In this document: positions 12,825 through 64,000 of the stretch, piece after piece
How positions within the stretch are numbered: the first letter of the stretch is position 1
Layout of the letters: each line of letters starts with the position of its first letter
Assembly (NCBI RefSeq): GCF_030063365.1
Contig: NZ_JASISY010000001.1
Span: 186,001 to 250,000, forward strand
Length of the DNA stretch: 64,000 bases
Source: Cryobacterium sp. PH29-G1
GTDB taxonomy: Bacteria > Actinomycetota > Actinomycetes > Actinomycetales > Microbacteriaceae
Direction of reading: 5' to 3'
Made by a program: the position numbers and the translations under genes
The notes under the pieces: model-generated
Told to the model about the DNA's origin: nothing
The model's database searches: none
Seen by the model: the letters and a program-made list of their open reading frames with translations, nothing else

Positions 12825-13823
12825 ATGAACGTCCAGACCACCGGACTGCACCACGTCACCGCGATCGCGGGCGCCCCGCAGCGCAATATCGACTTTTATG
12901 TGACCGGGCTGGGCCTGCGTCTGGTCAAGAAAACCGTCAACTTCGACGACCCGGGCACGTACCACCTCTACTACGGCGACGACTCCGGACGGCCGGGATC
13001 GCTGCTCACCTTCTTTCCGTGGACCGGCATTCGCAGCGGGCGCACCGGCTCCGGCCAGTCGACGACGACCGCATTCTCCGTTCCGTCCGGCAGCCTCGGC
13101 TGGTGGAAGACCCATTTCGCCAAGCTCGGAGTGGAATCGGAGGTGACCGGGCGCTCGTCGCACGAGGAGCGGCTTTCCCTGCGTGACCCCGACGGTTTGC
13201 AGCTCGACCTGGTGGCGTCGTCGACCGTGGATCCGCGGAATCCGTGGGATTCTGCATCCGTACCCGCCGAGTTTGCGGTGCGTGGGCAGCACTCTTCGGT
13301 GCTTACCGTGGCCGACCCGGCGAAGACCGTGCAGGTGCTCACGACCGATCTCGGCATGCACGTCATCGCGGAAGCGGATGGTCGCATCCGTGTGGGCGCC
13401 GGCGACGGCGCGGCGGGCAACCTCGTTGACGTGCTCGCCGACCCCGCCGGTCAGCCGGGACTCACCGCCGGCGGAACCGTGCACCACGTGGCGTTTCGGG
13501 TGCCCGACCGGGCCACGCAGGCGCAATGGCGTGAGCAGCTCGTGGAACGAGGCTACGGCGTGACCGCTATTCTCGACCGCCAATACTTCACCTCGATCTA
13601 CTTTCGCGAACCGGGCGGTGTGCTGTTTGAAATCGCCACGGACACTCCCGGTTTCGACATCGACGAGCCGTTGCTGGAGCTGGGCCGGTCGCTTAAGCTT
13701 CCGCCGTGGCTCGAACCGAGCCGCGAGGCCATTGAGAGAGCGGTCGCGCCGCTCGCATTGCCGCCGGAGAACAACCCGGCGATAACGGATGCTGCGGTGT
13801 CGGTCGCCACGGTCGCCGAATGA
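12825..13823 (+). CDS. VOC-family ring-cleaving dioxygenase (glyoxalase superfamily)
   Basis: The 332-residue protein has two paired betaalphabeta modules of the vicinal-oxygen-chelate fold, the first beginning TGLHHVTAIAGAPQRN and the second GTVHHVAFRVPDRATQ. Metal-ligand candidates are the His of each HHV motif and the Glu of PGGVLFEIATD (about residue 267). The length and architecture match the MhqO/LinE-like proteins annotated as ring-cleaving dioxygenases for hydroquinones. ATG 12825 follows an AGGAAGAGGA ribosome site. Its stop overlaps the hydrolase start (ATGA), so the two are translationally coupled, as with MhqO/MhqD pairs of quinone detoxification. Confidence 0.88.
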   Translation: MNVQTTGLHHVTAIAGAPQRNIDFYVTGLGLRLVKKTVNFDDPGTYHLYYGDDSGRPGSLLTFFPWTGIRSGRTGSGQSTTTAFSVPSGSLGWWKTHFAKLGVESEVTGRSSHEERLSLRDPDGLQLDLVASSTVDPRNPWDSASVPAEFAVRGQHSSVLTVADPAKTVQVLTTDLGMHVIAEADGRIRVGAGDGAAGNLVDVLADPAGQPGLTAGGTVHHVAFRVPDRATQAQWREQLVERGYGVTAILDRQYFTSIYFREPGGVLFEIATDTPGFDIDEPLLELGRSLKLPPWLEPSREAIERAVAPLALPPENNPAITDAAVSVATVAE

Positions 13824-14527
13824 ACGCGCCGACGCCTGCCGTGGCACCGGAAGCCGCGTGGCCGCACCTGTTTCGGCCGGGGGCAGCTGACGCGCCCGTG
13901 TTGGTGATGCTGCACGGAACCGGCGGCAATGAGCGGGAGATCAGCGGTCTGGCCGCAGCGCTCAACCCGAACGCCGCCGTGCTGGCGCCGCGCGGACGCG
14001 TGCAGGAGAACGGGCTCAACCGCTGGTTTCGTCGGGTATCAGAGGGTGTCTTTGACACCGCTGACGTGGCGCGACGCGCCGATGACCTCGCCGGGTTTTT
14101 GGTCTGGGCGCGGAATCAGTACGAACTCGGTAAGCGCCCGCTCGTGGCCGTCGGCTTCTCGAACGGCGCCAACATCGCCCTCGCGACGGCACTGTTGCAC
14201 CCCGCAGTGCTGCCACGGGTGATCGCTTTTTCCGGAATGCATCCGCTCGATCGGGTGCCGGCAGGTTCGCATTCGGCCGCCGGGAGCGCAGGGGCGAGCA
14301 CGGTGGCTGCCGGGGGTGCGCTCGACGCGCGGCTTGCGGTGAGCGATCTCACGGCATCCGCTGTGTTGCTCGTGAACGGTCGAAGCGACCCGATGGCACC
14401 GCTGGCGAGTGTGCAGAAGCTGGCGACCCTGCTGCATGAGCGCGGCGCCCGCGTGCGTCAGCACCTGCGCCCCGGCACCCACGGCATCACGCAAGCGGAT
14501 ATAGCCGTGGCTGCGTCGTGGCTCTAG
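13820..14527 (+). CDS. alpha/beta hydrolase, phospholipase/carboxylesterase family
   Basis: This 235-residue cytosolic hydrolase has the oxyanion segment VMLHGTGGNEREI near residue 30, the nucleophile elbow GFSNGA (Ser about 115), an acid residue in NGRSDPMAP and the catalytic His in GTHGITQAD near the end. It matches the dienelactone-hydrolase/carboxylesterase group that includes MhqD. The four-base overlap with the upstream dioxygenase suggests joint handling of quinone-like compounds; this is inference from family pairing. Confidence 0.87.
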   Translation: MNAPTPAVAPEAAWPHLFRPGAADAPVLVMLHGTGGNEREISGLAAALNPNAAVLAPRGRVQENGLNRWFRRVSEGVFDTADVARRADDLAGFLVWARNQYELGKRPLVAVGFSNGANIALATALLHPAVLPRVIAFSGMHPLDRVPAGSHSAAGSAGASTVAAGGALDARLAVSDLTASAVLLVNGRSDPMAPLASVQKLATLLHERGARVRQHLRPGTHGITQADIAVAASWL

Positions 14528-48100: not shown

Positions 48101-48139
48101 GTCGTTCCTCGATCTTGATCTGCAAAAAAACTCTGCTCA

Positions 48140-48156
48140 ATACCCCCCAAGGGTAT
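48140..48156. promoter_or_regulatory. CsoR-type copper operator upstream of copB
   Basis: ATACCCCCCAAGGGTAT carries the ATACCC..GGGTAT inverted arms of copper-responsive CsoR operators, in a pseudo-palindrome of 17 bases. It is 40 bases before the copB start. A similar 17-base site precedes the DUF6153/multicopper oxidase genes. No csoR gene is in the window. Confidence 0.75.
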
Positions 48157-48193
48157 ACCTGTCGGGGAGTTCCTGCATCCGCTCAGGACGTGC

Positions 48194-49729
48194 TCATCTG
48201 GCTTCCACGACGCCCATCATTCCGGTGTCCTCGTGATCGAGGATATGGCAGTGGTACACCGTGCGACCGCTGAAGTCCTCGAATGCAATGCGCACCCGCA
48301 CCTGGCCGCGCGCCGGGATGTTGACCACGTCCTGCCAGGGCGCCTTCGACACGGTCTGCCCGTTCTGCTCGATGAGCTGCATGGGCCAGACGTGCAGGTG
48401 CAGTGGGTGCGCCATGGTGCTGGCGTTGGTCAGCGTCCACTCCTCCACGGTGCCCGCCGCTACGGTCGTGTCGACCCGATCGCCGGCGAAGACGCGACCG
48501 TTGATCGTAGACACCATCATGTTGGCACCCATTCCCATGCCCATGCCCATATCGAAAACCAACTCGCGCCGGGCCGTCACGGTAGCTGACCGCAGGTCGC
48601 GCGGCTTCGGCTGGGTGGGCAGGGCGCCGAGTGGCTGCACTTCGGATCCGGCCACAACCAAGGTTGCCAGTGCGGTCGTGTCTGACGTCCCGCTGCTTCC
48701 TCCCATCATGCCGCCGCTCGTCGTACCGCCGCTCGTCATCGCGCCGGACGTTCCGCTGTGCGAGCCGCGGTCCACAGCAAACGCGCGCAGCACCGAGGTT
48801 CCCGCCTGGGCGGTGACCATGAGGTCGGCCCGGTTGCCCGGCGCGAGCACGATCTCGGTGACTTCCTCCGCATTCTCGAATCGACCGGAGTCGATGCCGA
48901 GCAGCTGCATCAGCTGCCCGTCGAGCTGCAGGCGCAGATAGCGCGACACGCAGGCGTTCACGATGCGCCAGCGCTCGCGCTCGCCGGGACGCGCGGCCAG
49001 CGCCGGGTTCACCTGCCCGTTGACCAGCACGATATCGCCTTCACGCCCGTCCATCTGCTGCATGGCGTTGACCGCGGCCACCTGCCCGCTCGATGCCAAT
49101 GCGATATCGGAGATCACCAGCATCCGCTCGCGCGCACTGGGAATGGGCACGGGATCGTCGACGATAATCGCCCCGTAGAGTCCGCCGAAGACCTGATCGG
49201 CGACGTAACCGTGGTGGTGCGGGTGATACCAATACACGCCAGGCGGGTGATTGTCGGGCAGCTGGTAGTCGTAGGCGAACGACTGGCCGGCCTCAACCAT
49301 GACGAACACATTGTCGCTGTTGCCCTCGGGTGAGACGTGCAGTCCGTGCACGTGCAGGTTGCTCGGATCATTCAGCCCGTTGTGCAGATTCACCCGCAGG
49401 CGATCACCAGAGCGGATGCGCAGCGTCGGCCCCGGCAGGCCGCCGTTGTACCCCAGAACGCTCGCCTCCACCCCGGCCAACTGAACCCGAACGGGCGCTG
49501 CGTCAAGGTCCACCGTGAGATCACCGGATGCGCTGGTCAGCTCCTCCGGTTGCACGAACTCCGCGCCCACCGGAGGGTTCTCGCCCGAATCGCCCGAACC
49601 GCCCGAACCGCCCGAATCGGGCCATAACTTCCAGACCGCGGCGCCCCCGACGGCGGTCGCGGCCAGTCCCAGGCCGCCAATGGTCAGCACCCGGCGGCGG
49701 CTGAGTACCATTTTCTGCTGGCTCGTCAT
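48194..49729 (-). CDS. multicopper oxidase with Tat signal (copper resistance)
   Basis: This 511-residue exported oxidase probably detoxifies Cu(I) outside the membrane. The Tat signal is SRRRVLTIGGLGLAATAVGG near residue 10. Copper-site motifs are HVHGLHVSPEG, YWYHPHHHGYV, HPLHLHVWPM and the C-terminal YHCHILDHEDTGMM, which supply type 1, 2 and 3 sites with an axial Met. Met-rich loops (GGMMGG and MGMGMGMGANMM) near residues 350-440 suggest cuprous binding as in CueO. ATG 49729 is chosen since upstream in-frame codons lack family sequence. It follows the DUF6153 gene by 176 bp. Confidence 0.93.
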   Translation of the reverse strand: MTSQQKMVLSRRRVLTIGGLGLAATAVGGAAVWKLWPDSGGSGGSGDSGENPPVGAEFVQPEELTSASGDLTVDLDAAPVRVQLAGVEASVLGYNGGLPGPTLRIRSGDRLRVNLHNGLNDPSNLHVHGLHVSPEGNSDNVFVMVEAGQSFAYDYQLPDNHPPGVYWYHPHHHGYVADQVFGGLYGAIIVDDPVPIPSARERMLVISDIALASSGQVAAVNAMQQMDGREGDIVLVNGQVNPALAARPGERERWRIVNACVSRYLRLQLDGQLMQLLGIDSGRFENAEEVTEIVLAPGNRADLMVTAQAGTSVLRAFAVDRGSHSGTSGAMTSGGTTSGGMMGGSSGTSDTTALATLVVAGSEVQPLGALPTQPKPRDLRSATVTARRELVFDMGMGMGMGANMMVSTINGRVFAGDRVDTTVAAGTVEEWTLTNASTMAHPLHLHVWPMQLIEQNGQTVSKAPWQDVVNIPARGQVRVRIAFEDFSGRTVYHCHILDHEDTGMMGVVEAR

Positions 49730-49905
49730 GGTCGACGCGCCAGCCGGGCGCGGGGAGCGGGAGCCGTTTCCCGGGGTGTTTTGCGGGCTGTCGCGGACGC
49801 CGTTGTGGCACAAAGTGGTACACGTGCGTTGTTCATCGTTCAATCCGTTCAGATCACGTCACAGAAACCGGGGGTGTCGGAGTGCGCCCGAAAGCGCGAC
49901 GGTTT

Positions 49906-52039: not shown

Positions 52040-53263
52040 ATGCACGACCTCACCCGGTGGGCGCTGCGTCCGCTGATGCGTGTCTGGACGGCGTCTGCCG
52101 AGCGGCAGGACCGTACCCTGCCTCGTCCGAACGACGCTCCGCAGGCCCACGCTCCCGGAATCGACAGTGACCGTGTGCTCATTCTCGGTTGTGGTCCGGC
52201 GGTCGGCTGGGGGGTGCTGAGCCACCAGCTGGCTCTGCCCGGGGCGCTCGCTCGGGAGCTGTCCGTGCGCACCGGGCGTGGTGCGGATATCGATCTCGTG
52301 AGTAGTCGCACCATGACAGCGGCGAACGCGCTCAGCGCCCTGGCCGGCACGCGCCTTAGCCGCTATGACGCGGTTGTGGTCATTCTTGGGCTGAACGAGG
52401 CGCTTGACCTCACCAGCGTGCACGAGTGGCACGACCGGTTGACGGCACTGCTTGCGATGCTCGAGCGTGAGACGTCGCGCAGCACCATGATCGTGGTGTT
52501 GGGTATTCCGCCCATTCGCAGCATCGAGATTTTCCGACGTCCGCTCGTGTTCATCGCCGACTGGTCGGCCGCGGACCTCAACGCGGTGAGTGCCCGGCTG
52601 GCCGCCGAGGCGTCCCGCACCACTTTCGTGCCGTTCTCGCCCACCGCAACGCTCACGCCCGATCGGCATCGTACCCCGCAGGATTACCGTGGCTGGGCCG
52701 TGCTCCTGGCCAACGCCATGGCTGACAGCCTCGACTCGGTACGCCTCGGCATAAACGGTGCGGAGGCCCCGGGCGCGGATGCCGCCAGCCGGGAGCGCTC
52801 CCGGCAGGCGGCCGTCGACGGCCTGGCCATTCTGGACACCCCGCCGGAAGCGCGGTTCGACCAGCTGGTCGCCCTGGCGCAACGCCTGTTTGGTACGGAG
52901 TCTGCGCTGATCAGCATCATTGATCACGACCGGCAGTGGCATAAGGCCCGGGTCGGGACCAACGAGACCGAAGTGCCCCGATCCCAATCATTCTGCGCGA
53001 TCACGATCGAGGGGGATGGGGCACTCATCGTTGAGGATGCCAGCAGCGACACCAGGTTCAGCGACAACCCACTGGTGAACGGTGACCCGAGCATCCGCTT
53101 TTATGCCGGGTTTCCGATCGAGTCTCCTTCGGGGGAACGCATCGGTGCCCTCTGCGTGTTCGATCCGAAGCCGCGGGTGCTCGCCGAGGTTGACCAGGTG
53201 CTGCTGCGCGAACTCGCGCTCCTCGTGCAGCGGGAACTGCGGGTGCCGCCAGTGGCACACTAG
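52040..53263 (+). CDS. SGNH-fold pseudohydrolase fused to a GAF domain
   Basis: The 407-residue protein has an SGNH-hydrolase-like N-terminal domain (residues 35-235): [22 protein letters not shown], then [13 protein letters not shown] and [13 protein letters not shown]. The usual GDS nucleophile motif reads GCGP, so the catalytic Ser is absent. A C-terminal GAF domain (about 255-405; [33 protein letters not shown], key part [16 protein letters not shown]) follows. GAF domains bind small molecules, so it may be a sensor, but no output domain is present. It follows DUF445 on the same strand by 80 bp. Confidence 0.85.
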
Positions 53264-53326: not shown

Positions 53327-54094
53327 ATGGTGAGTCCCCCCGAACAGTCAGTTCCCGTTCCGGGTACGAAACCAGCTGGGTCAGATCCCTCGGATTCGTC
53401 GGTGCTGGAAAAAGTGGATCGATTGTTTCGAGCGCTGTCAGAAACGTCGAGCACTCTCGGCCTCACCGAACTCGCGCGACGATCGCAGGTGCCGAAGGCC
53501 AGCACGTATCGCCTTGCAGAACAGCTGGTCGACCTTGGCTTCATGGTGAAGACGGCCCGGGGTTATCAGTTGGGTTGGCGGATTTACGAGATGGGGCAGT
53601 CGGTGCCGCGGCCCGCGCAGCTGCGGCGCGTTGCGCGCCCAACGCTCGTCGATCTCCGCCAAGCGACGAAGGCTCTCGTCGTGCATTTCGCTGTTCTGCA
53701 GGGTGACGACGTCGTGTATCTCGAGCGGCTAGGCGGGCGCCGTGAGGTAGCACTGCTTGCTGCCGTGGCCGCGTCGGCGCCGGCCGACCAAACCGTTTCT
53801 GGACGCGTTCTGCAGGCATACAGTGCGAACACGGAACGGGGGTCGGTTACGAGTGAGCAAGCGGCGGAGTACGCCGCCATTCGAGAGCGTCGCTGGGCGA
53901 GCGAAACCGGTTCCGTCGTTGCCGGGGCGAAAACGTTTGCCGTTCCCATTGAATACCCGGGTGGTTCGTTCGTCATCGGTGTGATTGCGGCTACCGTGCA
54001 CACGGGTCGTCAGGATGATCAGGAGACGCTGCACGCGCTGTGGGCGGCAGCGGGCGAAATCTCCGCTGCTCTGCAACGCAAGCCGGTTCGCTGA
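53327..54094 (+). CDS. IclR-family transcriptional regulator
   Basis: The 255-residue regulator has a winged helix (about residues 28-85; LGLTELARRSQVPKASTYRLAEQLVDLGFMVKT, key part TELARRSQVPKASTYRLAEQL) and an IclR effector domain (about 100-255; VVHFAVLQGDDVVYLERLGG, VSGRVLQAYSANTE). It is the first gene of the iac-like island and probably the substrate-responsive regulator. Known iac loci use a MarR-type IacR, so this would be a replacement. The control repeat just before the start suggests autoregulation. Confidence 0.9.
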   Translation: MVSPPEQSVPVPGTKPAGSDPSDSSVLEKVDRLFRALSETSSTLGLTELARRSQVPKASTYRLAEQLVDLGFMVKTARGYQLGWRIYEMGQSVPRPAQLRRVARPTLVDLRQATKALVVHFAVLQGDDVVYLERLGGRREVALLAAVAASAPADQTVSGRVLQAYSANTERGSVTSEQAAEYAAIRERRWASETGSVVAGAKTFAVPIEYPGGSFVIGVIAATVHTGRQDDQETLHALWAAAGEISAALQRKPVR

Positions 54095-54184
54095 ATGAAC
54101 CCGAACTCTCTCGGCAGCTTCCTTTAGTTCTACCGTCGACTATGCGTATTGGCACCGTGGCCGCGCGAGCGATGAAGGAGTTCC

Positions 54185-54742
54185 ATGAGTAGCGAATCAG
54201 TTCTGGCAGATCTGTTGCGACGCGTTGAAGTGCTGGAAGCCGAGGCCGATATTCGTCGAATTCAAGCTCGCTACATGTTTCTCTGTGACACTCCGATGCC
54301 TGAAGCTGACGTCACCGATGACTCGCGACGCGTCGAACTCATCCTTGATCTCTACACCGAAGATGCGGTGTGGGAAGGCGTGGGAGAGTATTACGACAAT
54401 CAGTTTGGACGCGCTGAAGGCAAGGACGCGATTCGTCGGCACTTCGAAGGATTCTGGGGCAGCCGTCAGGATCCTGCTCTGCTCCTGAACGCCCATTACC
54501 TCACGTCGGAGCAGATTAACGTTGATGGTGACACCGCGACCGGACAATGGATTCACATGCAGCCGTGGCTGTTCGCCGATGGCACGGGGTTGCTGCGCTC
54601 GAGCCGGCTGTACAACACCTTTCGCAGAGAGAACGGCGTGTGGTTGATCACGAGAACCCGCACCGAGAACGTCTTTGTTGCACCATTGCCCGACAATTTT
54701 GCCGAGGCATTCCCCTCGGCTTCCGTATTGATGCGTGGTTAG
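54185..54742 (+). CDS. SnoaL/NTF2-fold protein of the iac-like island
   Basis: The 185-residue protein has an NTF2/SnoaL fold with an N-terminal helix pair (VEVLEAEADIRRIQARYMFLCD, key part ADIRRIQARYMFL), then beta strands including TEDAVWEGVGEYYDNQFG, LTSEQINVDGDTATGQWIHMQ and RENGVWLITRTRTENVF. The IacI protein of iac loci is also a small protein of this class, so this could be its equivalent; I leave the symbol blank. A clear AAGGAG precedes the ATG. It is followed six bases later by the response regulator gene. Confidence 0.75.
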   Translation: MSSESVLADLLRRVEVLEAEADIRRIQARYMFLCDTPMPEADVTDDSRRVELILDLYTEDAVWEGVGEYYDNQFGRAEGKDAIRRHFEGFWGSRQDPALLLNAHYLTSEQINVDGDTATGQWIHMQPWLFADGTGLLRSSRLYNTFRRENGVWLITRTRTENVFVAPLPDNFAEAFPSASVLMRG

Positions 54743-54748
54743 GGAATC

Positions 54749-55402
54749 ATGACTATGCCGAGCACGCTCAGCGGTTCCGTACGCATGCTGGAGTCCGCCC
54801 CCGTCGTTCATATCGTTGACGATGACGAAGGATGGCGAAATTCCCTGGCCTTCCTCTTGCAGAGTGTGGGCATCGTCGCGCTCACGTACCCGCTCGCCAC
54901 TACTTTTCTCGAGGAGCTTGATAGCGACGAGCCCGCGGTGGTCATCCTGGAGGCGCGCATGCGTGGGCTCAGCGGCCTGCAGCTCCAGGAGCGGCTGGCG
55001 CTGCGGGATTATCCCGCACCTGTTCTGTTCTGTTCGGCCCATGGCGACATCGCGACCACGGTGCGTGCGATGCGCGCGGGGGCCGTGGGCTTCCTCGAGA
55101 AGCCGTACGACCCACAGGTGATGTTGGAGACCGTTCAGGAGCAGATCGTAGAGGCGGAGACCGCCTTCCGGGAACGCGCCGGACGCCGCTCGATCGAGGC
55201 TCGCATCGATTCACTCACACCGCGCGAGCTGGACGTGCTGCGTCTGGTCATGGAGGGCCTTCCCAGTCGGCAGATCGCGTCGCTTCTGGGCGCAAGTGTC
55301 AAGACGATCGACGTGCACCGCGCTCGAATCCGGGCTAAGGCCGATGCTGAAAGTCTGGGCTGCCTGGTGCGAGATCTGTTTCAGCACCGCATCAAGGTCT
55401 GA
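54749..55402 (+). CDS. LuxR/FixJ-type response regulator with Glu in place of the phosphoacceptor Asp
   Basis: The 217-residue protein has a receiver domain (about 17-130) and a C-terminal LuxR helix-turn-helix (about 155-210; LTPRELDVLRLVMEGLPSRQIASLLGASVKTIDVHRARI, key part SRQIASLLGASVKTIDVHR). The Mg-binding acids are kept (HIVDDDEGW), as are the switch Ser (LFCSAHGD) and the Lys of FLEKPYD. At the phosphoacceptor position the sequence reads VVILEARMRG, so the usual Asp is Glu68, and the following Pro is Arg. Glu can mimic a phosphorylated Asp, so it may be always active. No histidine kinase gene is adjacent. FixJ-type regulators are known in some iac loci with a kinase partner. Confidence 0.9.
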   Translation: MTMPSTLSGSVRMLESAPVVHIVDDDEGWRNSLAFLLQSVGIVALTYPLATTFLEELDSDEPAVVILEARMRGLSGLQLQERLALRDYPAPVLFCSAHGDIATTVRAMRAGAVGFLEKPYDPQVMLETVQEQIVEAETAFRERAGRRSIEARIDSLTPRELDVLRLVMEGLPSRQIASLLGASVKTIDVHRARIRAKADAESLGCLVRDLFQHRIKV

Positions 55403-55421
55403 GCTCATCAGTAAACGTGGT

Positions 55422-55472
55422 CCCAGCGTCGCTCAGAGACCCAGCGTCGCTCAGAGACCCAGCGTCGCTCAG
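55422..55472. repeat. 18-bp tandem repeat between response regulator and amidase
   Basis: CCCAGCGTCGCTCAGAGA occurs twice in full and once in its first 15 bases. It lies at the convergent end of the response regulator and amidase genes and overlaps the last few bases of the amidase frame, including its stop. Confidence 0.9.
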
Positions 55473-56707
55473 GGTAAGCGGTCCTGAATCCAGCCAGCAG
55501 TGCTGAGGAGCGCGGCTTCACCTCGAGGGTGTCCGATCAGTTGGATCCCCAGTGGGAGGTGAGCCTGGCTTCTCAAGCCCGGAATAGTGGCCACGGGCAG
55601 GCCAATCGCCTGCCACGGACGGCTGAGCAGCGGATCCCCGGTGGCCGCCGTGCCTTCAGGAGCAGCGCCCAGTGCAGCCGCTCCGACGATGCCACTGCAC
55701 CCGTTCAGTACCTCGCGGATCCGAGCGCGTCCCCGTGCCAGCAGGGTGCGCGCCTCGCGGTAATCGGCGTCCGAAATCCGGGCACCGTTCTCGAGCAGCT
55801 GTCGGAGAGGCTCACTCAAGCGGTCGGCCATAGCCAGCTCTGTGGCACGTTCGCGGGCGGCTTCATAGCCCATCACGATCGGCTGCGCTGCCGTGCAATC
55901 GATAATCAGTTGGGCCTCGGGGAAGACCTCAACGACAGCGCCATCTGCGCGAAAAGCACGGGTGGCCCGGTCCACGGCATCCACCATCTCGCCAGACACC
56001 GAGCCGATAGTGCACGCATCCCAGAGCAGCAGTCGGGGTGGCGCGGAGGGTGGGATGCTTTCGCCGGAGAGGGCTGACCATGCCACGGCCAGGTCGTGGG
56101 CATCCGCGGTGAACATGCCGTTGCTGTCCAGGCTTTGGGACAGGCCGGTGATGCCGTCAACCGGAAACCGGTCGTGCGTCATGACCAGCGATGCCACGCC
56201 GCAGAACGAAGCGGGACGAGTGACCGATCCCGCTGTCTGTGAGCCGAGCGCGAGTGGAACCTGGCCGGACGCAACTGCCGCAGCCGAGCCGCTCGATGAT
56301 CCGCCGGGAGTGTGGCCGGGAGCAGCGGGGTTGTTGGTCGGGCCGGGTTGAAAGAATGCGAACTCCGTCGTGACGGTCTTTCCGATGGGTACTGCACCAG
56401 CAGCACGCCACGCCGACACGATCGTCGCATCCGTTTCGGCCGGTGCGGCGTCACGCCGCGTGGCCGAACCGCATTTTGTGGGAAAACCATGCAGGTCAAT
56501 GATGTCTTTGACGCCCATCGGCACTCCGTGCAGCGCTCCTTCTGCGCTGGGCCGCTCGGGAAAAGAGATGTCCACCCACGCGCGGACTGTTTCCTCGGTC
56601 TCATCTATGCGCTGCCGTGAGCGTGCGCGAGCGGCATCTTGGGTGGTGCGGCCCGTCTTGAGATCTTCAACGAGCTCCCGGAGAGACCATGGAGCGAATA
56701 GGCTCAC
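55469..56707 (-). CDS. iacH: amidase signature family enzyme, IacH-like
   Basis: The 412-residue amidase has the catalytic Lys in HGVPMGVKDIIDLHG (about residue 75), the Gly/Ser-rich motif PGGSSSGSAAAVASGQVPLALG (key part GGSSSGSAAAVASG, about 148) and the nucleophile region SQTAGSVTRPASFCG. In iac loci an amidase-family protein (IacH) accompanies the ring-opening enzymes, thought to cleave an amide or lactam made from the indole ring. GTG 56707 overlaps the stop of the upstream 94-residue gene as GTGA; ATG 56773 would put the start inside that gene and is rejected. The gene name is inferred from the locus. Confidence 0.75.
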   Translation of the reverse strand: MSLFAPWSLRELVEDLKTGRTTQDAARARSRQRIDETEETVRAWVDISFPERPSAEGALHGVPMGVKDIIDLHGFPTKCGSATRRDAAPAETDATIVSAWRAAGAVPIGKTVTTEFAFFQPGPTNNPAAPGHTPGGSSSGSAAAVASGQVPLALGSQTAGSVTRPASFCGVASLVMTHDRFPVDGITGLSQSLDSNGMFTADAHDLAVAWSALSGESIPPSAPPRLLLWDACTIGSVSGEMVDAVDRATRAFRADGAVVEVFPEAQLIIDCTAAQPIVMGYEAARERATELAMADRLSEPLRQLLENGARISDADYREARTLLARGRARIREVLNGCSGIVGAAALGAAPEGTAATGDPLLSRPWQAIGLPVATIPGLRSQAHLPLGIQLIGHPRGEAALLSTAGWIQDRLP

Positions 56708-56988
56708 GCCTCGTCCCAGACCACATCGGCACGCCAATAGTCCTGCCCAACCGGGCTCTGGTGGTGATCCCAATCGGAGACACGCTTGAGCGTGGGCTCG
56801 ATTCGCGCCGTTACCGCATCGGCAGCTTCCGGGCCGTCCTCGGGAACACCCCAGTGAACCCAGTTCAGCTCATTGCCATCGGCATCATGGATGAAGAGAT
56901 CGACGTGCTTCCAGCCGTAGCCGAACGTATCGTTGTAACACATCAGCGTCATCTTGCGCTGGTCGTCAGGGGTGTCGAGCCGAAGCAT
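56704..56988 (-). CDS. small conserved-looking protein coupled to the amidase gene
   Basis: The 94-residue soluble protein has many aromatic and acidic residues (YNDTFGYGWKHVDLFIHDADGNELNWVHWG, key part GYGWKHVDLFIHDADG). I recognise no family. GAGGAGG is seven bases before ATG 56988, and two further in-frame ATGs lie upstream. Its stop overlaps the amidase start, so it is made with the amidase, and may be a small partner or a pathway protein. Confidence 0.65.
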   Translation of the reverse strand: MLRLDTPDDQRKMTLMCYNDTFGYGWKHVDLFIHDADGNELNWVHWGVPEDGPEAADAVTARIEPTLKRVSDWDHHQSPVGQDYWRADVVWDEA

Positions 56989-57018
56989 GTGCATCCCTCC
57001 TCTGTGGTGATCGTGCAC

Positions 57019-57155
57019 GGATTGAACCGGGAGACGGGGGCGGGACAGGTCTCGCCTCGCGTGACCGACGGTCCGGAATGAGGTTCCAACTTGAGCCTAT
57101 GTCGCACCAAAGAAATCGCAAGTGAAGATTACCGTTCGGCAGTGCAGAGAATTCC
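57019..57155. other. 137-bp control region before the small protein/amidase unit
   Basis: No gene is seen. The promoter of the minus-strand unit must lie here; the stretch is less GC-rich than its neighbours near 57085-57155, as expected for a promoter, but I cannot name boxes with confidence. Confidence 0.3.
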
Positions 57156-57497
57156 TTACTCTCGTGCCAGCGCCGCGAGCAAGAAGTTCATCAGATCGTC
57201 TGTCGTCTCGGGCTGGGCGAGAGCAAATTTCTCAGATGCTTCCGCACACGAATCTCCACACATGACCTCGCGTCGGTTGTGCTCAATCAGTGATGCTGCG
57301 ACCTGCAGGTGTCTGATGGCGCACGTGATCCCCACCAGGATTTGCTCGCTGACCTCCTCCGAGGCGCCAGTGAGATCGGTCAGGGAATGCGCGCGCACTT
57401 GGACCCCGGCCAGGTAGTTGTGAGCCGAAGCCAGGGGAATAGCCATGGCACGGATCAACTTCACGGTGTCGTCACCGGGTTGGGCGTCGTTGGGCAT
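57156..57497 (-). CDS. hypothetical helical protein, 113 residues
   Basis: The protein is mostly helical with Ala/Leu-rich sequence (AMAIPLASAHNYLAGVQVRAH, key part PLASAHNYLAGVQVRAH) and three Cys residues or fewer near MCGDSCAEASEKF. No signal peptide or membrane helix is evident. I recognise no family. It sits alone between the 94-residue gene and the divergent dioxygenase genes. Codon use is like its neighbours, so it is probably real. Confidence 0.5.
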   Translation of the reverse strand: MPNDAQPGDDTVKLIRAMAIPLASAHNYLAGVQVRAHSLTDLTGASEEVSEQILVGITCAIRHLQVAASLIEHNRREVMCGDSCAEASEKFALAQPETTDDLMNFLLAALARE

Positions 57498-57689
57498 GTC
57501 TTCAGGCTAGGCGCGCCGACGTCGCTGCGACAGCGGGGGTAGTCACCATCCAGCTAAAGATTCCCCCCGCGATGCTGAGGCGATCCCGCATATCCCTGAA
57601 AGTCACGCGTCTCATACGATGGCAACACGCTCTCTCGGCCATGTTTTATGGTCGGGCCTATGCGCACTGACACAGATGGAGGCAAGTCG

Positions 57690-58988
57690 ATGACCGTTGA
57701 GTTCACCGAAGAGAACATCTACGACCTGACACCCGATGAGCTGGTGCTCACCGATCGAGTCGCCGGACGAATGTATACCGATCCGGACATCTTTGATGAA
57801 GAGATGACCAAGATCTTCGAACGGACCTGGATCTGGGTGGCGCACCTCAGCGAACTGCCCAAGGCCGGCGCCTTCAAGACGACCTACGTCGGACAACAGC
57901 CGGTCATCGTGTCGCGTGACCGCAAGGGCAACATTCACACGATGCTCAATCGGTGCCGCCATCGCGGTGCAACTGTGTGCGAGACGCCCAGCGGAGTCGT
58001 GAACGGGTTCACCTGCCCGTACCACGCGTGGTCATACGGCCTTGACGGCAGCCTGCGAGGAATCCCGTATCCCGATGGGTATGAAGGCATCATGGACAAG
58101 TCCACGATGGGTCTGAAGAAGCTGCGTACGGAGCAGTACAACGGCATGATCTTCGCTACCTTCGACCATGACATCGAGCCGCTCGAGGACTTCCTCGGCG
58201 ATGCGAAAATGTGGATCGACCGCTTCATGGCACAGGGCGCCGGCTACCCCGTGAAGGTTTTGGGCACGCACCGTTTCAAGTTCAAAGGCAACTGGAAGAT
58301 CCAGTTGGAGAACACCACCGACGGCTACCACTTTCCGATCGTGCACCGCTCGTGGATGGCGACCGTTGATGAAGAGACCGCGGACATGATGAGCTTCATG
58401 ACCGACCCGACTGCAATCACTCACGTGCTCGGCAACGGTCACTCCGTCATGCAGATGGTCCCGCAACACACCGACCTTGAAGCGGACGACGGCAGCGAGC
58501 CGCTGCAGCCGCGCTTCGATGGCCTCGTCGCCGACCTGCGGGCACAGGGGGTCGACGAAGAGAGGATACGAAAGCTCGTGTACACCGTGCACGGCACCGG
58601 ATTCAACCTCAACCTCTTTCCGAACGTGTCATTGTCGATCTCGTTCTTTCGCACGTTGCGTCCGGTGTCCGTCAACGAGACGATCATCGAACACATTGCG
58701 ATCGGCCCGGATGGCCCGCCGGAGATCGTCGACCGCGTCAACCAGGAGCGCATGCGTGCGCACGAGAACTTTCAGGGCCCCTTCGGATTCGGCACGCCGG
58801 ACGATGCCGAGGGATGGGACCGTGTGCAGCGCGGCGCCGTCGGCGGACCAGAACTGCCTGTCATGGTGAACCGTGGTCTCGCTCGCGAAACAAAATCGCC
58901 CGAAGGTTGGACGACCTCGCACGTCACCGATGAGTCAGGGATGCGTGCGGCGTACTACCAGTGGAAGGAAATGATGGGCAATGAGTGA
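57690..58988 (+). CDS. iacC: Rieske aromatic-ring dioxygenase, alpha subunit (IacC-like)
   Basis: The 432-residue oxygenase subunit binds a Rieske cluster through Cys89-x-His91 and Cys109-x2-His112 (NRCRHRGA and TCPYHAWSYG), and a mononuclear iron through His214 and His219 in DGYHFPIVHRSW, with the bridging Asp211 and a C-terminal Asp in the DDAEGWDRVQRG stretch. It hydroxylates an aromatic ring with O2. Its place beside IacA/B/E/H-like genes points to the late step of indole-3-acetate degradation (IacC). Substrate is not proven. ATG 57690 follows GGAGG by eight bases. It overlaps the beta-subunit gene. Confidence 0.88.
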   Translation: MTVEFTEENIYDLTPDELVLTDRVAGRMYTDPDIFDEEMTKIFERTWIWVAHLSELPKAGAFKTTYVGQQPVIVSRDRKGNIHTMLNRCRHRGATVCETPSGVVNGFTCPYHAWSYGLDGSLRGIPYPDGYEGIMDKSTMGLKKLRTEQYNGMIFATFDHDIEPLEDFLGDAKMWIDRFMAQGAGYPVKVLGTHRFKFKGNWKIQLENTTDGYHFPIVHRSWMATVDEETADMMSFMTDPTAITHVLGNGHSVMQMVPQHTDLEADDGSEPLQPRFDGLVADLRAQGVDEERIRKLVYTVHGTGFNLNLFPNVSLSISFFRTLRPVSVNETIIEHIAIGPDGPPEIVDRVNQERMRAHENFQGPFGFGTPDDAEGWDRVQRGAVGGPELPVMVNRGLARETKSPEGWTTSHVTDESGMRAAYYQWKEMMGNE

Positions 58989-59553
58989 CCCAGGAGCGAC
59001 CCTCAAGCCCGGTGCGTGGCTGACCGGCCGCAGTACTTACAAGCGACCGCTGTCTTACGCTGGTATTTCCAGCAGCGACCCTCGGGTGGCGCGCGCCATC
59101 GATTTTGTCTCCTATGAGGCTGAGCTTCTCGATCGCAAGGAGTACGTGGTCTGGCAGGAACTGTACGCCGAGGACGGCGTATATGTTATTCCCATTGATC
59201 CAGAGACCGATAACTTCGACAGTCAGCTGAACATGGTCTATGACCATGACAAGCTCCGTCGCGCACGCGTTGTTCGGCTGAGCGAGGGCTACGCCATTTC
59301 GGCCGTGGATGCTGCGCTGACAGTGCGCACTCTCGGTCGTTTCATCGCCGCTGAAGTCAGCGACACCGAGATCACTTTGCGCGCGGCGCAGATTGTGGTG
59401 GCCTACAAGCGAGGCACTCACCACATCTGGGCCGGCGACGTTGAGTACAAGATTCGCTTCGGTGCTACCACCGCAGACGACCGGATTGTATTGAAGGTCA
59501 TTCGCCTGGTCGACAGTCAAGGCGTGACTCCCGCCTCAGGATTCCTGTTGTGA
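58981..59553 (+). CDS. iacD: aromatic-ring dioxygenase beta subunit (IacD-like)
   Basis: The 190-residue NTF2-fold small subunit has the typical VARAIDFVSYEAELLDRKEYVVWQELYAEDGVYVIP (key part EAELLDRKEYVVWQELYAEDG) start of aromatic dioxygenase beta subunits. It forms an alpha3beta3 enzyme with the alpha subunit. Its ATG lies eight bases inside the alpha gene, and its stop overlaps the reductase start, so the three are coupled. The iacD name is inferred from the island. Confidence 0.88.
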   Translation: MSDPGATLKPGAWLTGRSTYKRPLSYAGISSSDPRVARAIDFVSYEAELLDRKEYVVWQELYAEDGVYVIPIDPETDNFDSQLNMVYDHDKLRRARVVRLSEGYAISAVDAALTVRTLGRFIAAEVSDTEITLRAAQIVVAYKRGTHHIWAGDVEYKIRFGATTADDRIVLKVIRLVDSQGVTPASGFLL

Positions 59554-60503
59554 GCGGAGTTGTCGTTGTGGTTGCGGAAGTCACCGAGGAGACTCCGGAC
59601 ATCCGCACCCTCAGGCTCGTCCACGAGGACGAGCGCCCGTTCACGCGCTTCGAGGCGGGCGCCCATATGGACGTCACGGGCCCAACAGGAGTTCTGCGGC
59701 AGTACTCATTGGCCAGCGCGCCAGGCGACCCCTCGTCGATTCTCATTGCGGTCAAACGCGAACCGGGCGGTACCGGAAGCGCGGCGCTGCACGAAGTGCA
59801 GGTAGGCGACCGGCTCCTCATCGGCAAACCGCGCAACCTGCTCAAGATCATGGACGATGCCGACCGTCACATCCTTGTGGTCGGCGGTATCGGCGTGACG
59901 CCGCTGCTCTCAATGGCGTACGAGCTGTACTCGCGCGGTGCCGACTTTGAACTGCACTATTTCGCACGCTCGCGTGCGGAAGCGGCGTTTGTTCCGTTCC
60001 TCGAAGAGCGCGCCGAGTTCCGCGACATGGTCCACTTCCACTTTGGCGGTCCGCGAGCTGAGCGCCCGGCGATTTATGCCGACATCGTGTCCCGGGTAAC
60101 GCCGCGAAGCCACCTATACACCTGCGGCCCTGTTCCGTTCATGGAACAGGTCGAGCAGATCTTCGCGCCGGTCGTTGGCCAGGAACACGTGCACATCGAG
60201 CAATTTCAGGCCGCAGAGATTGACACGAGCGAAGACACGGCTTTCACGGTGGAACTCGACTCTGGTGAGGTGTTCGAGATCCCCGCGGATCGGACGATTC
60301 TCGCCGTGCTGGAAGACAACGGCATTGACGTCTTCAAATCATGCGAGGAGGGCGTCTGTGGTTCCTGCGTCAGCGGTCTGATTGAGGGTGTCGCGGACCA
60401 CCGTGATAGCTGTCTGTCGAAATCAGAGAAAGACGCCGGCGAACAGATCGCCATTTGCGTTTCTCGTGCCAAGACTCAAAAGTTGGTCATCGAACTCTAC
60501 TGA
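59550..60503 (+). CDS. iacF: dioxygenase reductase: flavin/NAD domain with C-terminal 2Fe-2S (VanB/phthalate-reductase type, IacF-like)
   Basis: The 317-residue protein passes electrons from NAD(P)H to the Rieske oxygenase. It has the flavin motif RQYSLAS (about residue 50), the nucleotide motif VVGGIGVTPLLSM (about 112), CGPVPFMEQ (about 194) and a C-terminal plant-type ferredoxin with CEEGVCGSC and a later Cys in DSCLSKSE. RxYSL without a following FAD lysine is typical of the FMN-using phthalate-dioxygenase-reductase class. Known iac loci contain IacF as the electron-transfer partner; the name is inferred. A strong terminator follows at 60517. Confidence 0.85.
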   Translation: MSGVVVVVAEVTEETPDIRTLRLVHEDERPFTRFEAGAHMDVTGPTGVLRQYSLASAPGDPSSILIAVKREPGGTGSAALHEVQVGDRLLIGKPRNLLKIMDDADRHILVVGGIGVTPLLSMAYELYSRGADFELHYFARSRAEAAFVPFLEERAEFRDMVHFHFGGPRAERPAIYADIVSRVTPRSHLYTCGPVPFMEQVEQIFAPVVGQEHVHIEQFQAAEIDTSEDTAFTVELDSGEVFEIPADRTILAVLEDNGIDVFKSCEEGVCGSCVSGLIEGVADHRDSCLSKSEKDAGEQIAICVSRAKTQKLVIELY

Positions 60504-60516
60504 GGCCGCGCTGAAA

Positions 60517-60548
60517 TGGGCGTCACGCAGGAATCTGCGTGACGCCCA
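60517..60548. terminator. terminator between convergent reductase and octopine-dehydrogenase-family genes
   Basis: TGGGCGTCACGCA (60517-60529) pairs perfectly with TGCGTGACGCCCA (60536-60548) around a six-base loop, 14 bases after the reductase stop. The convergent gene ends at 60595, so it may serve both directions. Confidence 0.85.
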
Positions 60549-60594
60549 GTGTGCTGTCAGAACACAGTTGTCACTGCGACGGCACAAGCGCCCC

Positions 60595-61671
60595 TCAGAT
60601 CCCGGCGCGCAGCATTGTCTGAACCTCGGTCACCGACTGATCGGCGAGGCCAAGATTCTCCAGAGTGCGTCCGGTGGCGCGAAGATCGCGGCCGTGCACA
60701 GCGCCGGCGATGGACAGCAGACCAGCTGCAACGGGTACCGGAACGCCAGCCCATTCGCCGACCGAGACGAGAAAGGCCAGGCCGACAGCGGTGTCCTCGG
60801 TCATGTACCGGTGCTGTTGGAAGTTGAGTTTCTCACTCCAATCGCCGGAGTCCACCAGATTGTTACGGGCCTTGGTGCCATACATCCAGTCACCACCCTC
60901 GTAGTAGTCGGCGAGGGGAAAGTGCGGGGCACCGTAGCCCAGAGCTTCGCGTACGGCCATGCGTTCGGCGTCGAGCGCGGTGTGCACAGCGCGCACCGCC
61001 GGCTGGGTGCCTTCGTTATGGATGTCCCAATGGTCGAAGTGCTCGATTGGGCCGGCATTCATCAGGATGAGCGGCGGATGGATGATCGGCCCCGCATTCA
61101 TCAGGGCGCCCGAGAGCGCATCACCGCAGGGCTCAATGGCACCGGGGAAGGCTTGACCGATGACTCGGAGTGCATGATCAGCCAGCCGCTCGGGGAGAAC
61201 GCCCGTCGGCAGGCGCGTCGCGCGGGTCGTTATTCGCACGGTGTCGTCGCCTTGCTTACGACACAGCCACGGAAGAGTCCCGGTCTCGGCGATGGAAATA
61301 TCGGCAACGCAGCCCTGTTCGCGCAGCCGCTTCATCATGAGGAACGAGCCGAACGAGCCGGGTGAGAGGTAGATGACCTGCCCGTCCACGAGATGCGCTG
61401 CCAGCGCGTCGGCGAGCGCCTCGTGCGCGAAGGCGGGCGTCGGCGCGATAATCAGTTCGGCACCTTCAATCGCCGCGGCCAGGTCATCCGTGGGCGAGAT
61501 TGGAATCTCCCGGATGCCGTCACTATCGATTAGCGTGAGGGGTTTGCCCGTCGCGAGGCTGCCGAAGGCCGCCAATTCGCGTCGCCACCAGCGCACATCA
61601 TGACCGGCCACGGTCGCATCCGCCACGGCGGCGAAGGACCCGTTCCCTCCACCAAGTACTGCAACTCTCAT
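60595..61671 (-). CDS. NAD/NADP octopine/nopaline dehydrogenase family protein
   Basis: The 358-residue oxidoreductase has an N-terminal Rossmann fold (MRVAVLGGGNGSFAAVADATVAGH, key part VAVLGGGNGSFAAVADA) and the octopine-dehydrogenase C-terminal domain (about 185-340; ALMNAGPIIHPPLILMNAGP, with His-containing NEGTQPAVRAVHTALDAER). Family members reduce or oxidise an opine-like C-N bond between an amino acid and a keto acid. I know of no such gene in iac loci, so it may be an extra step here. AGAGG is nine bases before ATG 61671; ATG 61677 is also possible. It is downstream of the SDR gene on the same strand. Confidence 0.85.
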   Translation of the reverse strand: MRVAVLGGGNGSFAAVADATVAGHDVRWWRRELAAFGSLATGKPLTLIDSDGIREIPISPTDDLAAAIEGAELIIAPTPAFAHEALADALAAHLVDGQVIYLSPGSFGSFLMMKRLREQGCVADISIAETGTLPWLCRKQGDDTVRITTRATRLPTGVLPERLADHALRVIGQAFPGAIEPCGDALSGALMNAGPIIHPPLILMNAGPIEHFDHWDIHNEGTQPAVRAVHTALDAERMAVREALGYGAPHFPLADYYEGGDWMYGTKARNNLVDSGDWSEKLNFQQHRYMTEDTAVGLAFLVSVGEWAGVPVPVAAGLLSIAGAVHGRDLRATGRTLENLGLADQSVTEVQTMLRAGI

Positions 61672-61757
61672 GGTCATATACCTCTTAAATAGAAAGACAC
61701 TGCGGTGATTTTCGGGTCCGCTCAGCGGCACAGCTCAGTTGGCTTCGGCGTGCGCCG

Positions 61758-62501
61758 TCAGCGCATAAAGACACCCCCGTTGACGTCGAGCGTGGAACCG
61801 GTGACAAAACCGCTGTCCGGCCCAACGAGATAGGCGACGGCCGCGGCAACTTCTTCGGCGGTTCCCACGCGTCCGACGGGAAGCGTGCGCCCGATCTCGG
61901 CAGCATCCGCGTCGCTGCCCATCGCTGGCGTGTGGATCGCGGCCGGCGAGACCGAGTTGACGGTGACGCCGTCACCGGCGAGCTCACGCGCGAAGATCTT
62001 GGTCAGCACGAGGGCCCCCGCTTTGGATGCGGCGTAGTGTGCTCCCGTGACCAAGCCGCCCTGCTGGCCGGCAAAGGAAGCCATATTCACGATTCGACCC
62101 CAGCCCTTGTCCCGCATCGCGGAACCCGCGAGTTGGCAGAACACCAGATAGCTGCGGAGGTTGGTGCGAAGCACCGCGTCCCATTCTTCCGGGGTGATGT
62201 CCCAGATCGAGCTTCGCACGGTGCGCCCCGCGTTGTTGACCAGCACGTCCGGTGCGCCCCAGGCCGCCGTCTGGTCAGCGAAGGCCCGATGAATCGAGTC
62301 CGCGTCTGAGACGTCGACCGCAAGTGCACGCGCCGTCGCCCCGCTCGCATCGAGTTCGAGAGCAAGCGCCGTGGCCGTGTCAATGTTCAGATCGGCGATT
62401 GCGACGCGAAAGCCGTCGGCGTGAAGCCGCCGAGCAATCGCAGCGCCCAGGCCCTGGGCCGCACCGGTAACAAGTGCGGATCGGTTTTCGTTCGGGGCCA
62501 C
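61758..62501 (-). CDS. iacE: short-chain dehydrogenase/reductase (IacE-like)
   Basis: The 247-residue classical SDR has the cofactor motif VTGAAQGLGAAIARRL (about residue 12), NNAG (about 87), catalytic Ser in VNMASFAGQQGG (about 138) and YAASK (Tyr about 151, Lys 155). GTG 62501 is chosen because GGAG overlapping the upstream stop lies eight bases before it, and the protein then begins MAPNENRSALVTG. It would oxidise the alcohol made by the first IAA step, by analogy to IacE. It lies between the octopine-dehydrogenase-family gene and the IacB-like gene, all on the minus strand. Confidence 0.85.
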   Translation of the reverse strand: MAPNENRSALVTGAAQGLGAAIARRLHADGFRVAIADLNIDTATALALELDASGATARALAVDVSDADSIHRAFADQTAAWGAPDVLVNNAGRTVRSSIWDITPEEWDAVLRTNLRSYLVFCQLAGSAMRDKGWGRIVNMASFAGQQGGLVTGAHYAASKAGALVLTKIFARELAGDGVTVNSVSPAAIHTPAMGSDADAAEIGRTLPVGRVGTAEEVAAAVAYLVGPDSGFVTGSTLDVNGGVFMR

Positions 62502-62505
62502 GGCG

Positions 62506-62871
62506 CTACTCCGTGCCAAAGAACAGTCCACGGCCGAGGCGTGCCTCGATTTTGTAGTAGTGCCACATCAGGTGGTCGCCCACCGGGGTGTCGCGGATGA
62601 TGCTCGCGATGGATCTCACCGATTCGTAGCCTGGAGTGTCCATCAGAATATATGCGGTCCACGGCGCCGCGCTGGAGGGGCCAACCTGCAGGGTATCGTC
62701 GTCGAACGTGCCGATGACGCTCACGCCGAAACGACCGCTCAGGTCGGCAAACGCTGCCTTCGTGGTTTCGAAAACGAGCTTGCGCTCATCGGCGTCGGCG
62801 GCAAAGAATGCGTCCCGAACGCCGATGCAGATGAGTGCGCGCACTGGTTCGGGGCTCTGCTGGTCGCTCAT
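62506..62871 (-). CDS. iacB: IacB-like small protein of the IAA degradation locus
   Basis: The 121-residue cytosolic protein has no known catalytic motif. It is rich in aromatic and charged residues and ends HLMWHYYKIEARLGRGLFFGTE. Its size and place directly after the IacA-like gene (ATGA overlap) and before the SDR match IacB, an essential but uncharacterised member of iac loci. The assignment rests on gene order and size, not on a searched match. Confidence 0.6.
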   Translation of the reverse strand: MSDQQSPEPVRALICIGVRDAFFAADADERKLVFETTKAAFADLSGRFGVSVIGTFDDDTLQVGPSSAAPWTAYILMDTPGYESVRSIASIIRDTPVGDHLMWHYYKIEARLGRGLFFGTE

Positions 62872-64000
62872 GCGTTTACTCCTTCGCGAAGGCTGCCATG
62901 GGTCGGAGCAAGCACCAGGCCAAGCGAGGTGGCGGCAATGAACTCGTGTGCGGCGAAGGAGGAGACCGGCATGAACTGGCCAGCCTGCACGTCACGCCAC
63001 ATGCGCTCGAACGGCAACGACTTTGCGTAGGCAGCTCCGCCGACAACATCGATCAAACGGGTGAAGACCGCGACGGCATTGGTCGCGCAGACATGCTTGA
63101 CCAGGGCGCTACCGGCGACGATTTCCTGCAGGTCAAACTCGTTGTAGTACTCCGGGGTGCCGAACTGGTGCGTGTGACGGTACAGCAGGGCTCGCGCCGT
63201 TTCGATCAGGATCTCTGCATCGGCAATGCAATCCTGCGCGCGGGCGTCATCGACGAGACCTCGGCGACGGACCTGCTGTTTTGCCCAGTCCAGTCCGCCG
63301 ACAGCGATGCCCACGTAGACGGCACCAAACGCTGGCTGGGAGGAACCGAATACAGTCTCCGTGACAGTGGCATCGAGGTGGCCGACCGGAAAGGAATGCA
63401 CGACGTCCGCGTCGGGCACGAAAACACCGTCAAATTCCAGGTCGTTGCTCTGCGTGGCGCGCATGCCCATCATGTTCCACACGTTGTGGATTCTGACGTT
63501 CGGGTCCTTGAGGTCGAGCTTCATCATGAGCAGCTGCGGGCCCTTTTCGGGATCCTCAAATCGCGCAGTGGTCGAAGCGTGCGTGGCGACAGCGGAGTTC
63601 GTGCCGAAGTTCTTCCGCCCCGTAATTCGGTAGCCGCCCTCAACCTTCTCGGCGCGCGTGCGCGCGTCGGTCATGAGATTGGGGGTACCGAACTCGCTCG
63701 TGATGGCGGCCCAGATGAGTTTGCCCTCTGCGGCTTCGCGGAGCAGGCCCTCCAGGCGGGGGCTCTTGGTCTTGCGCCATACGTTGGACCACTGCGCCAA
63801 CGGCGTGAAGTGCATGTTCACCGCCAGGGCCGTGGCGGCGTCGGCCGACGCAATCCGCTCAACAACCGGGATCACCTCAAACAGTGTGGCGCCAAGCCCC
63901 CCGAGCTCTTCGGGTACGGAGAGGTTCAACAATCCAACGTCGCGCATGTCTTCGTAGTTCTGGAAGGGAAACGTGTTGTCGGCGTCGTTCGCGGCGGCGC
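62868..64000 (-). CDS. iacA: acyl-CoA-dehydrogenase-fold monooxygenase, IacA-like (partial, runs off right edge)
   Basis: At least 377 residues are visible, from AAANDADNTFPFQNYEDMRD at the window edge to the stop at 62868. The fold is acyl-CoA dehydrogenase: VPEELGGLGATLFEVIPVVERIA, AITSEFGTPNLMTDARTRAE, the central beta domain GGYRITGRKNFGTNS, and the helical C-terminus with VGGAAYAKSLPFERMWRDVQAG (key part SLPFERMWRDVQAG). In iac loci this protein is IacA, the flavin enzyme that starts attack on the indole ring. The start lies outside the window. Its stop overlaps the IacB-like gene by four bases. Confidence 0.85.
   Translation of the reverse strand, partial: AAANDADNTFPFQNYEDMRDVGLLNLSVPEELGGLGATLFEVIPVVERIASADAATALAVNMHFTPLAQWSNVWRKTKSPRLEGLLREAAEGKLIWAAITSEFGTPNLMTDARTRAEKVEGGYRITGRKNFGTNSAVATHASTTARFEDPEKGPQLLMMKLDLKDPNVRIHNVWNMMGMRATQSNDLEFDGVFVPDADVVHSFPVGHLDATVTETVFGSSQPAFGAVYVGIAVGGLDWAKQQVRRRGLVDDARAQDCIADAEILIETARALLYRHTHQFGTPEYYNEFDLQEIVAGSALVKHVCATNAVAVFTRLIDVVGGAAYAKSLPFERMWRDVQAGQFMPVSSFAAHEFIAATSLGLVLAPTHGSLREGVNA

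Follow-up and report, generated by a model that had tools for sequence, protein, structure and literature searches.

A candidate hybrid iac-type locus of Cryobacterium with a nitrososynthase/DszC-side flavoprotein in the position of IacA

Bacterial loci for the degradation of indole-3-acetic acid (IAA) are divided into iac-like and iad-like types, and Conway et al. (PMC9613470) describe them from five phyla, including Actinobacteria, treating iacA, iacB, and iacI as markers of the iac type and iadA/iadB (iotA/iorB) as exclusive to iad loci. As described in PMC7225977, IacA hydroxylates IAA at C2 and accepts many 3-substituted indoles, and IacE converts its product to dioxindole-3-acetic acid (DOAA) with oxygen from water, the role of IacB being unknown; the conversion of DOAA into catechol is stated to require iacC in Pseudomonas putida (PMC9613470). 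Rhodococcus is named among the IAA-degrading genera, and a LysR-type IacR is reported in Paraburkholderia (PMC11676955). Genome surveys have used iacA as a marker of IAA degraders (PMC9613470, PMC11630574), and loci in which IacB, C, D, F, and I are retained but IacA is swapped would be missed or misread. Here we describe what is probably such a locus in a 64,000-nucleotide stretch of the 3.8-Mb genome of Cryobacterium sp. PH29-G1 (NZ_JASISY010000001.1, positions 186,001 to 250,000), called the window below, whose end from position 53,327 onward a first-pass annotation had read as a rearranged actinobacterial iac locus.

We regard it as a hybrid catabolic locus of the iac type, in which an actinobacterial iac back end is combined with a separate front-end oxygenase cassette, because the IacB and the short-chain dehydrogenase (SDR) of the cassette form a lineage of their own and the late genes match those of actinobacterial iac plasmids; that it works in the way proposed below is the reading toward which we lean. 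The back end consists of the IacC/D dioxygenase, the IacF reductase, an IacI-like protein, an amidase, a response regulator, and a 96-aa protein. The cassette, which replaces the canonical iacA, iacG, iacB, and iacE, consists of a flavin reductase, a flavin monooxygenase of the acyl-CoA dehydrogenase (ACAD) fold designated ACAD2, IacB, the IacE-like SDR, and a LysR regulator. Loci with a true IacA, such as that of Acinetobacter NCu2D-2, also bring together IacB, C, D, F, IacI-like and IacE-like proteins, a flavin reductase, and an amidase, but the first oxygenase in the window comes from another ACAD clade and its IacB and SDR from another lineage, and the genes are split over both strands with no MarR gene among those read. 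The iac plasmids of Rhodococcus YL-1, Rhodococcus USK13, and Streptomyces NBC_00564 share with the window the closest IacC and IacI, the amidase clade, the response regulator, and the 96-aa protein, whereas they carry a true IacA and the canonical IacB and IacE lineages. The iad loci of Variovorax and Achromobacter resemble the window in having a Rieske dioxygenase and its reductase without iacA, but the window has IacB, an IacI-like protein, and an iac-type IacC, and a Pfam scan of 53.3–70.9 kb gave no gene resembling iadA or iadB in the form that we presume them to take. Because an iacA ortholog was sought without success, as detailed below, the locus is not filed as a canonical iac operon, and no description of the hybrid variant was found in the literature searched, the scope of which did not extend to subscription journals.

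Late genes shared with actinobacterial iac plasmids

The reference genes were taken from the plasmid records of five iac loci (Acinetobacter NCu2D-2, Rhodococcus YL-1, Rhodococcus USK13, Streptomyces NBC_00564, and Caballeronia SBC1), among which only the IacB of NCu2D-2 carries the Iac name; the other letters were assigned by product and gene order, on the assumption that the order is HABICDEFG. By blastp, the IacC of the window is 58% identical to that of NCu2D-2, 76% to that of YL-1, 67% to that of USK13, 64% to that of NBC_00564, and 60% to that of SBC1, and its IacD is 35–53% identical to the IacD of the five loci. As in iac loci, adjacent iacC and iacD orthologs are present along with iacF, and the genes of the Rieske alpha subunit, beta subunit, and reductase are joined by short start-stop overlaps. 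An IacI-like protein, another feature of iac loci, is 77% identical to its counterpart in YL-1, 34% to that of Acinetobacter, and 39% to that of Caballeronia, YL-1 being the closest to the window in both IacC and IacI (76–77%). The response regulator is 44–52% identical to those of the three actinobacterial iac plasmids. The amidase, which retains the catalytic motifs, is 42–49% identical to the Rhodococcus and Streptomyces iac amidases and 29–30% identical to those of Acinetobacter and Caballeronia. It belongs to an actinobacterial clade whose identity to these two IacH-like proteins of proteobacteria is only 27–31%. Its true start probably lies further inside the listed frame.

The IacC clade is sharply bounded in the plasmid collection: 941 records matched the query, and among the best 40 listed, 30 are at least 52% identical, with the next at 36.5%. 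IacB was found in 28 of 72,556 plasmid records, 26 of which are among the 30 IacC-clade records, the other two being from Psychrobacter urativorans and Neorhizobium SOG26. The IacB–IacC pairing, which the window has, is diagnostic because of this co-occurrence, and as most of the gene set is also found together in two further genomes, the gene grouping is more than chance.

The 96-aa protein, which is not IacB and matched nothing in Pfam or NCBIfam and no fold clearly, occurs in three of the 72,556 plasmid records, namely the three actinobacterial iac plasmids, in all of which its gene lies next to that of the response regulator. An alignment of five sequences has 39 invariant columns, and His, Asp, and Trp residues are conserved. 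In the Leucobacter metagenome-assembled genome G790, its gene adjoins that of the amidase and the stretch contains no response regulator, and among 394 genomes sampled, the family was found only in that of the window. In Streptomyces, some 6 kb separate the 96-aa gene from a beta-propeller (lactonase-like) gene (L036:13179-14243). Both the 96-aa protein and the cassette are small, testable targets.

The flavoprotein in the IacA position and its cassette

The first-pass annotation had taken ACAD2 for an IacA-like enzyme, and it had named better matches of its IacA- or IacB-like proteins to other families as evidence against an iac locus. Such matches were found for ACAD2, whereas IacB stood. 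By blastp, ACAD2 is 21–27% identical to four true IacAs, whereas the IacA of Acinetobacter is 40–46% identical to the other three, all actinobacterial. With the Acinetobacter query, 355 plasmid records matched, and among the best 60 listed, 42 are at least 37.7% identical and the next 31.8%, which delimits the true IacA family; among the 28 IacB-bearing plasmid records, 27 also encode a true IacA on that replicon, at a distance of 7–22 kb in a few of them, and the exception, a Psychrobacter plasmid, has IacB and an IacE-like SDR. In the genomes of the window (G000), Leucobacter chromiisoli (G788), and the possibly incomplete G790, true-IacA queries matched proteins of only 24–29% identity, and thus no iacA ortholog was found.

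The nearest solved structures also differ. The Streptomyces IacA matches Rv3094c best (205 bits), followed by the HsaA-type 2rfq (113 bits), while ACAD2 matches 5z8t/5gj7 (134 bits) and nitrososynthases (104–125 bits) far above the Rv3094c/HsaA-type chains (46 bits). In a tree of 16 proteins, ACAD2 (five rows, support 98/97) is apart from IacA (five rows, support 100/99, stem 2.06), two further rows being long-branched and the deeper order unresolved. A 24-column middle segment of ACAD2 is absent from the four true IacAs in the alignment made. In the AlphaFold model of ACAD2, the best structural matches are 5gj7, 5z8t, KijD3, and DnmZ, with DszC and TdsC, the latter solved with indole bound, close behind at small differences in Z. 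Judged from these comparisons, ACAD2 is not IacA and sits on the nitrososynthase/DszC side of the fold, although its identity to those enzymes is about 20–28% in structural alignments and its setting is an indole-acid-type locus. The catalytic Glu of the dehydrogenases, which we take to be the MCAD-type residue near the C terminus, is replaced by Pro at the aligned position in all five ACAD2 proteins, and this loss, together with the adjacent flavin reductase gene, fits a two-component monooxygenase. The flavin reductase, 27% identical to the Acinetobacter IacG, had seemed to be lacking in the first-pass annotation only because of the window edge. Reading beyond position 64,000, as had been proposed there, revealed both the rest of the ACAD2 gene, which runs on for 76 bases past the edge, and the reductase frame, the true start of which is probably later than that of the open frame.

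IacB is 38–42% identical to the five canonical IacBs and 49–83% to those of cassettes, and a single copy was found in a whole-genome search. The SDR, 39–48% identical to the canonical IacE, is placed as a sister lineage in the tree. In the IacB and SDR trees, proteins from the same six genomes (the window, L. chromiisoli, G790, Amycolatopsis anabasis, G515, and G731) are grouped against six canonical rows, with support of 100/99 for IacB and 100/100 for the SDR. LysR, flavin reductase, ACAD2, IacB, and SDR genes lie side by side in A. anabasis, where a beta-propeller (lactonase-like) gene adjoins the cassette (L014:12393-13436). In G515, the ACAD2 and SDR genes are accompanied by IacB on the opposite strand and by TRAP and octopine-dehydrogenase-like genes. 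A LysR gene beside the ACAD operon is common to the window, L. chromiisoli (L013), Amycolatopsis (L014), and stretch L015. In G731 (L030:307-4789), genes for hydantoinase B, IacB, an AMP-ligase-like protein identified by visual inspection, and an IacE-like SDR stand side by side in a stretch where no ACAD2 was found, a setting from which IacB and its SDR may be thought to act jointly on cyclic amides more generally. The occurrence of this pair without IacA or IacC bears on the open question of the role of IacB.

The related loci were retrieved with an ACAD2 query, which does not force IacC/D/F to be adjacent, and yet the cassette and the IacC/D/F genes are found together in all three related genomes (the window, L. 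chromiisoli, and G790) in differing orders. The window ACAD2 is 88% identical to the protein of L. chromiisoli, in which the cassette is inverted and an aminotransferase gene intervenes; G790 has a further gene order, and its ACAD2 is truncated where a contig ends. The L. chromiisoli cassette is flanked by genes for a class-III aminotransferase and an aldehyde dehydrogenase (L013:6893-8356 and 12986-14437), two enzymes that might turn an amine into an indole acid, and an aldehyde dehydrogenase gene is also present in the YL-1 locus. The IacC clade was found in one of 398 genomes sampled from the family, that of the window itself, and the only other genome above the limit had a 39% match. IacB occurs in 4 of 396 genomes sampled from the phylum, and ACAD2 exceeds 500 bits in 2 of 394 from the class, six more at 213–230 bits representing a related subfamily. 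The rarity of the locus genes and their shuffled order suggest that the locus was acquired by transfer.

Proposed reactions and competing explanations

The locus most likely converts indole-3-acetate, or an indole acid close to it, into catechol, by a course whose substrate and individual reactions are all proposed here. The flavin reductase would supply reduced flavin to ACAD2 for the C2 hydroxylation of indole-3-acetate, or of a similar 3-substituted indole acid, yielding the oxindole; the SDR, along with IacB in an unassigned role, would form a 3-hydroxy-oxindole of the DOAA type, which IacC/D/F would convert toward catechol. Catechol might then enter ortho cleavage via intradiol dioxygenases from other parts of the genome, where matches were found at four places on three contigs, and the muconate-cycloisomerase-like enzyme encoded about 6 kb beyond the edge, 57% identical by blastp to an enzyme of the Streptomyces iac cluster, might serve the same route.

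Several observations weigh against this proposal. The strongest doubt is about the substrate, because there are cassettes that lack an accompanying IacC and because an ACAD2 adjoins a phosphonate-type ABC system. No IacC-clade protein is present in the genomes of A. anabasis, which gave only partial matches of 35–38%, and G515, which, like G731, gave no match at an E value of 1e-20; the cassette product need therefore not be DOAA. In the G515 stretch (L028), moreover, no flavin reductase or LysR homolog was found, and IacB is on the other strand. In genome G1021, an ACAD2 homolog (53%) adjoins a phosphonate-type binding protein gene and an ABC gene (L058:8592-10705) in a stretch with no IacB, which means that the ACAD2 family is not confined to indoles. 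Sugar N-oxygenases are among the closest solved relatives of ACAD2 by sequence, and its AlphaFold model is of low confidence (mean pLDDT, 67). The intradiol dioxygenases may be of the catechol or the protocatechuate type, and IAA use by the host is something that we infer from its genes.

One possibility, less probable than the proposal above but deserving serious attention, is that the same hybrid serves another substrate, a different indole or N-heterocycle such as an indole acid with a ring substituent or a longer chain. ACAD2 would then determine the new specificity, and IacC/D/F would attack the corresponding 3-hydroxy-oxindole. A swapped first oxygenase would be the natural place for altered specificity, the cassette is present in genomes that have no IacC-clade protein, and the octopine-dehydrogenase-like gene, the TRAP transporter, and the class-III aminotransferase of L. 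chromiisoli are all absent from the five reference iac stretches as annotated. The identity of IacC to its counterparts (58–76%), however, argues for the same dioxygenase substrate, and IacA itself is described as broad enough to accept indole-3-propionate and -butyrate (PMC7225977), so that a broader range would not call for a new oxygenase. It is improbable that two unrelated pathways came to lie side by side by chance, with IacC/D/F acting on externally supplied dioxindoles: the cassette does occur apart from IacC in Amycolatopsis and G515, but the linkage persists in all three related genomes despite the changed order, and the IacB search found no second copy in the genome of the window. 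Least probable is a canonical iac locus whose IacA has simply diverged fast, for the shared fold family, the position before IacB, and the flavin reductase are outweighed by the identity gap, the separate supported clades with their long stem, the different nearest structures, the additional middle segment, and the separate lineage of the cassette IacB and SDR.

If the hybrid reading holds, the swap would suggest that the specificity-setting first step of auxin-type breakdown has been recruited at least twice among ACAD-fold flavoproteins. Whether a second front end for auxin-type breakdown was recruited independently in bacteria, made of a DszC/nitrososynthase-side monooxygenase with its own IacB/SDR pair and either plugged onto the iac dioxygenase, as in Leucobacter, or used without it, as in Amycolatopsis and another actinobacterium, is in our judgment evenly balanced.

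Layout of the locus and neighboring genes

Each of the main gene types is an intact frame scoring above the Pfam cut-off of its best family. The first-pass annotation was right to place the Rieske subunits, reductase, amidase, NTF2-fold protein, SDR, ACAD-fold protein, and regulators together, and right about the small IacB-like protein and the layout over both strands; its reading as an actinobacterial counterpart of iac holds for IacC, D, F, B, and the E-like and I-like proteins and fails for IacA, while its view that an IclR regulator takes over from the MarR-type IacR is conjectural. It had passed over the octopine-dehydrogenase-like gene and the 96-aa protein.

Table 1. Genes of the locus and its border, in window coordinates
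Feature	Position	Strand	Remarks
IclR-family regulator	53327..54094	+	Pfam HTH_IclR and IclR_C; 61–65% identity in two related Leucobacter loci
IacI-like NTF2/SnoaL-fold protein	54185..54742	+	SnoaL_4
Response regulator, LuxR-type DNA-binding domain	54749..55402	+	Response_reg and GerE
Amidase (IacH-like role, actinobacterial clade)	55469..56773	-	PF01425; frame as listed
96-aa protein	56704..56994	-	Gene precedes amidase on same strand
Possible small gene, weak	57156..57497	-	39% over 69 aa, L. chromiisoli only; no match in Pfam search
IacC, Rieske dioxygenase alpha subunit	57648..58988	+	Rieske and iron-ligand motifs intact
IacD, dioxygenase beta subunit	58981..59553	+	PF00866
IacF, ferredoxin/flavin reductase	59550..60503	+	35–49% to IacF of four iac loci
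Octopine-dehydrogenase-like oxidoreductase	60595..61731	-	PF02317; downstream of SDR
IacE-like SDR	61758..62531	-	55–80% to cassette SDRs
IacB	62506..62871	-	Overlaps ACAD2 stop by 4 bases
ACAD2, ACAD-fold flavin monooxygenase, IacA position	62868..64000 (gene continues to 64076)	-	402 aa
Flavin reductase	64102-64965 (open frame)	-	PF01613; just beyond window edge

Read from the right, the minus-strand order is flavin reductase, ACAD2, IacB, SDR, and the octopine-dehydrogenase-like gene. The product of the last of these has N-(1-D-carboxyethyl)-L-norvaline dehydrogenase as its best solved match; a search for it gave no hit in either related Leucobacter locus (L013 and L061), and a 42% homolog is situated close to the cassette of G515 (L028:2776-3792). 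Beyond the edge, the plus strand carries LysR, the TRAP transporter genes DctP/Q/M, a second LysR, and an MR/MLE enzyme (about 69780-70892). The G+C content of the locus is 0.59–0.65 per kilobase, compared with 0.652 for the whole window. Farther to the left, an apparent copper-type P-ATPase and an apparent multicopper oxidase, both judged by eye from the translations, adjoin each other on the minus strand (46043-49843), and a single plus-strand frame (52040-53263) combines a GDSL-type hydrolase region, slightly below the Pfam cut-off, with a GAF domain.

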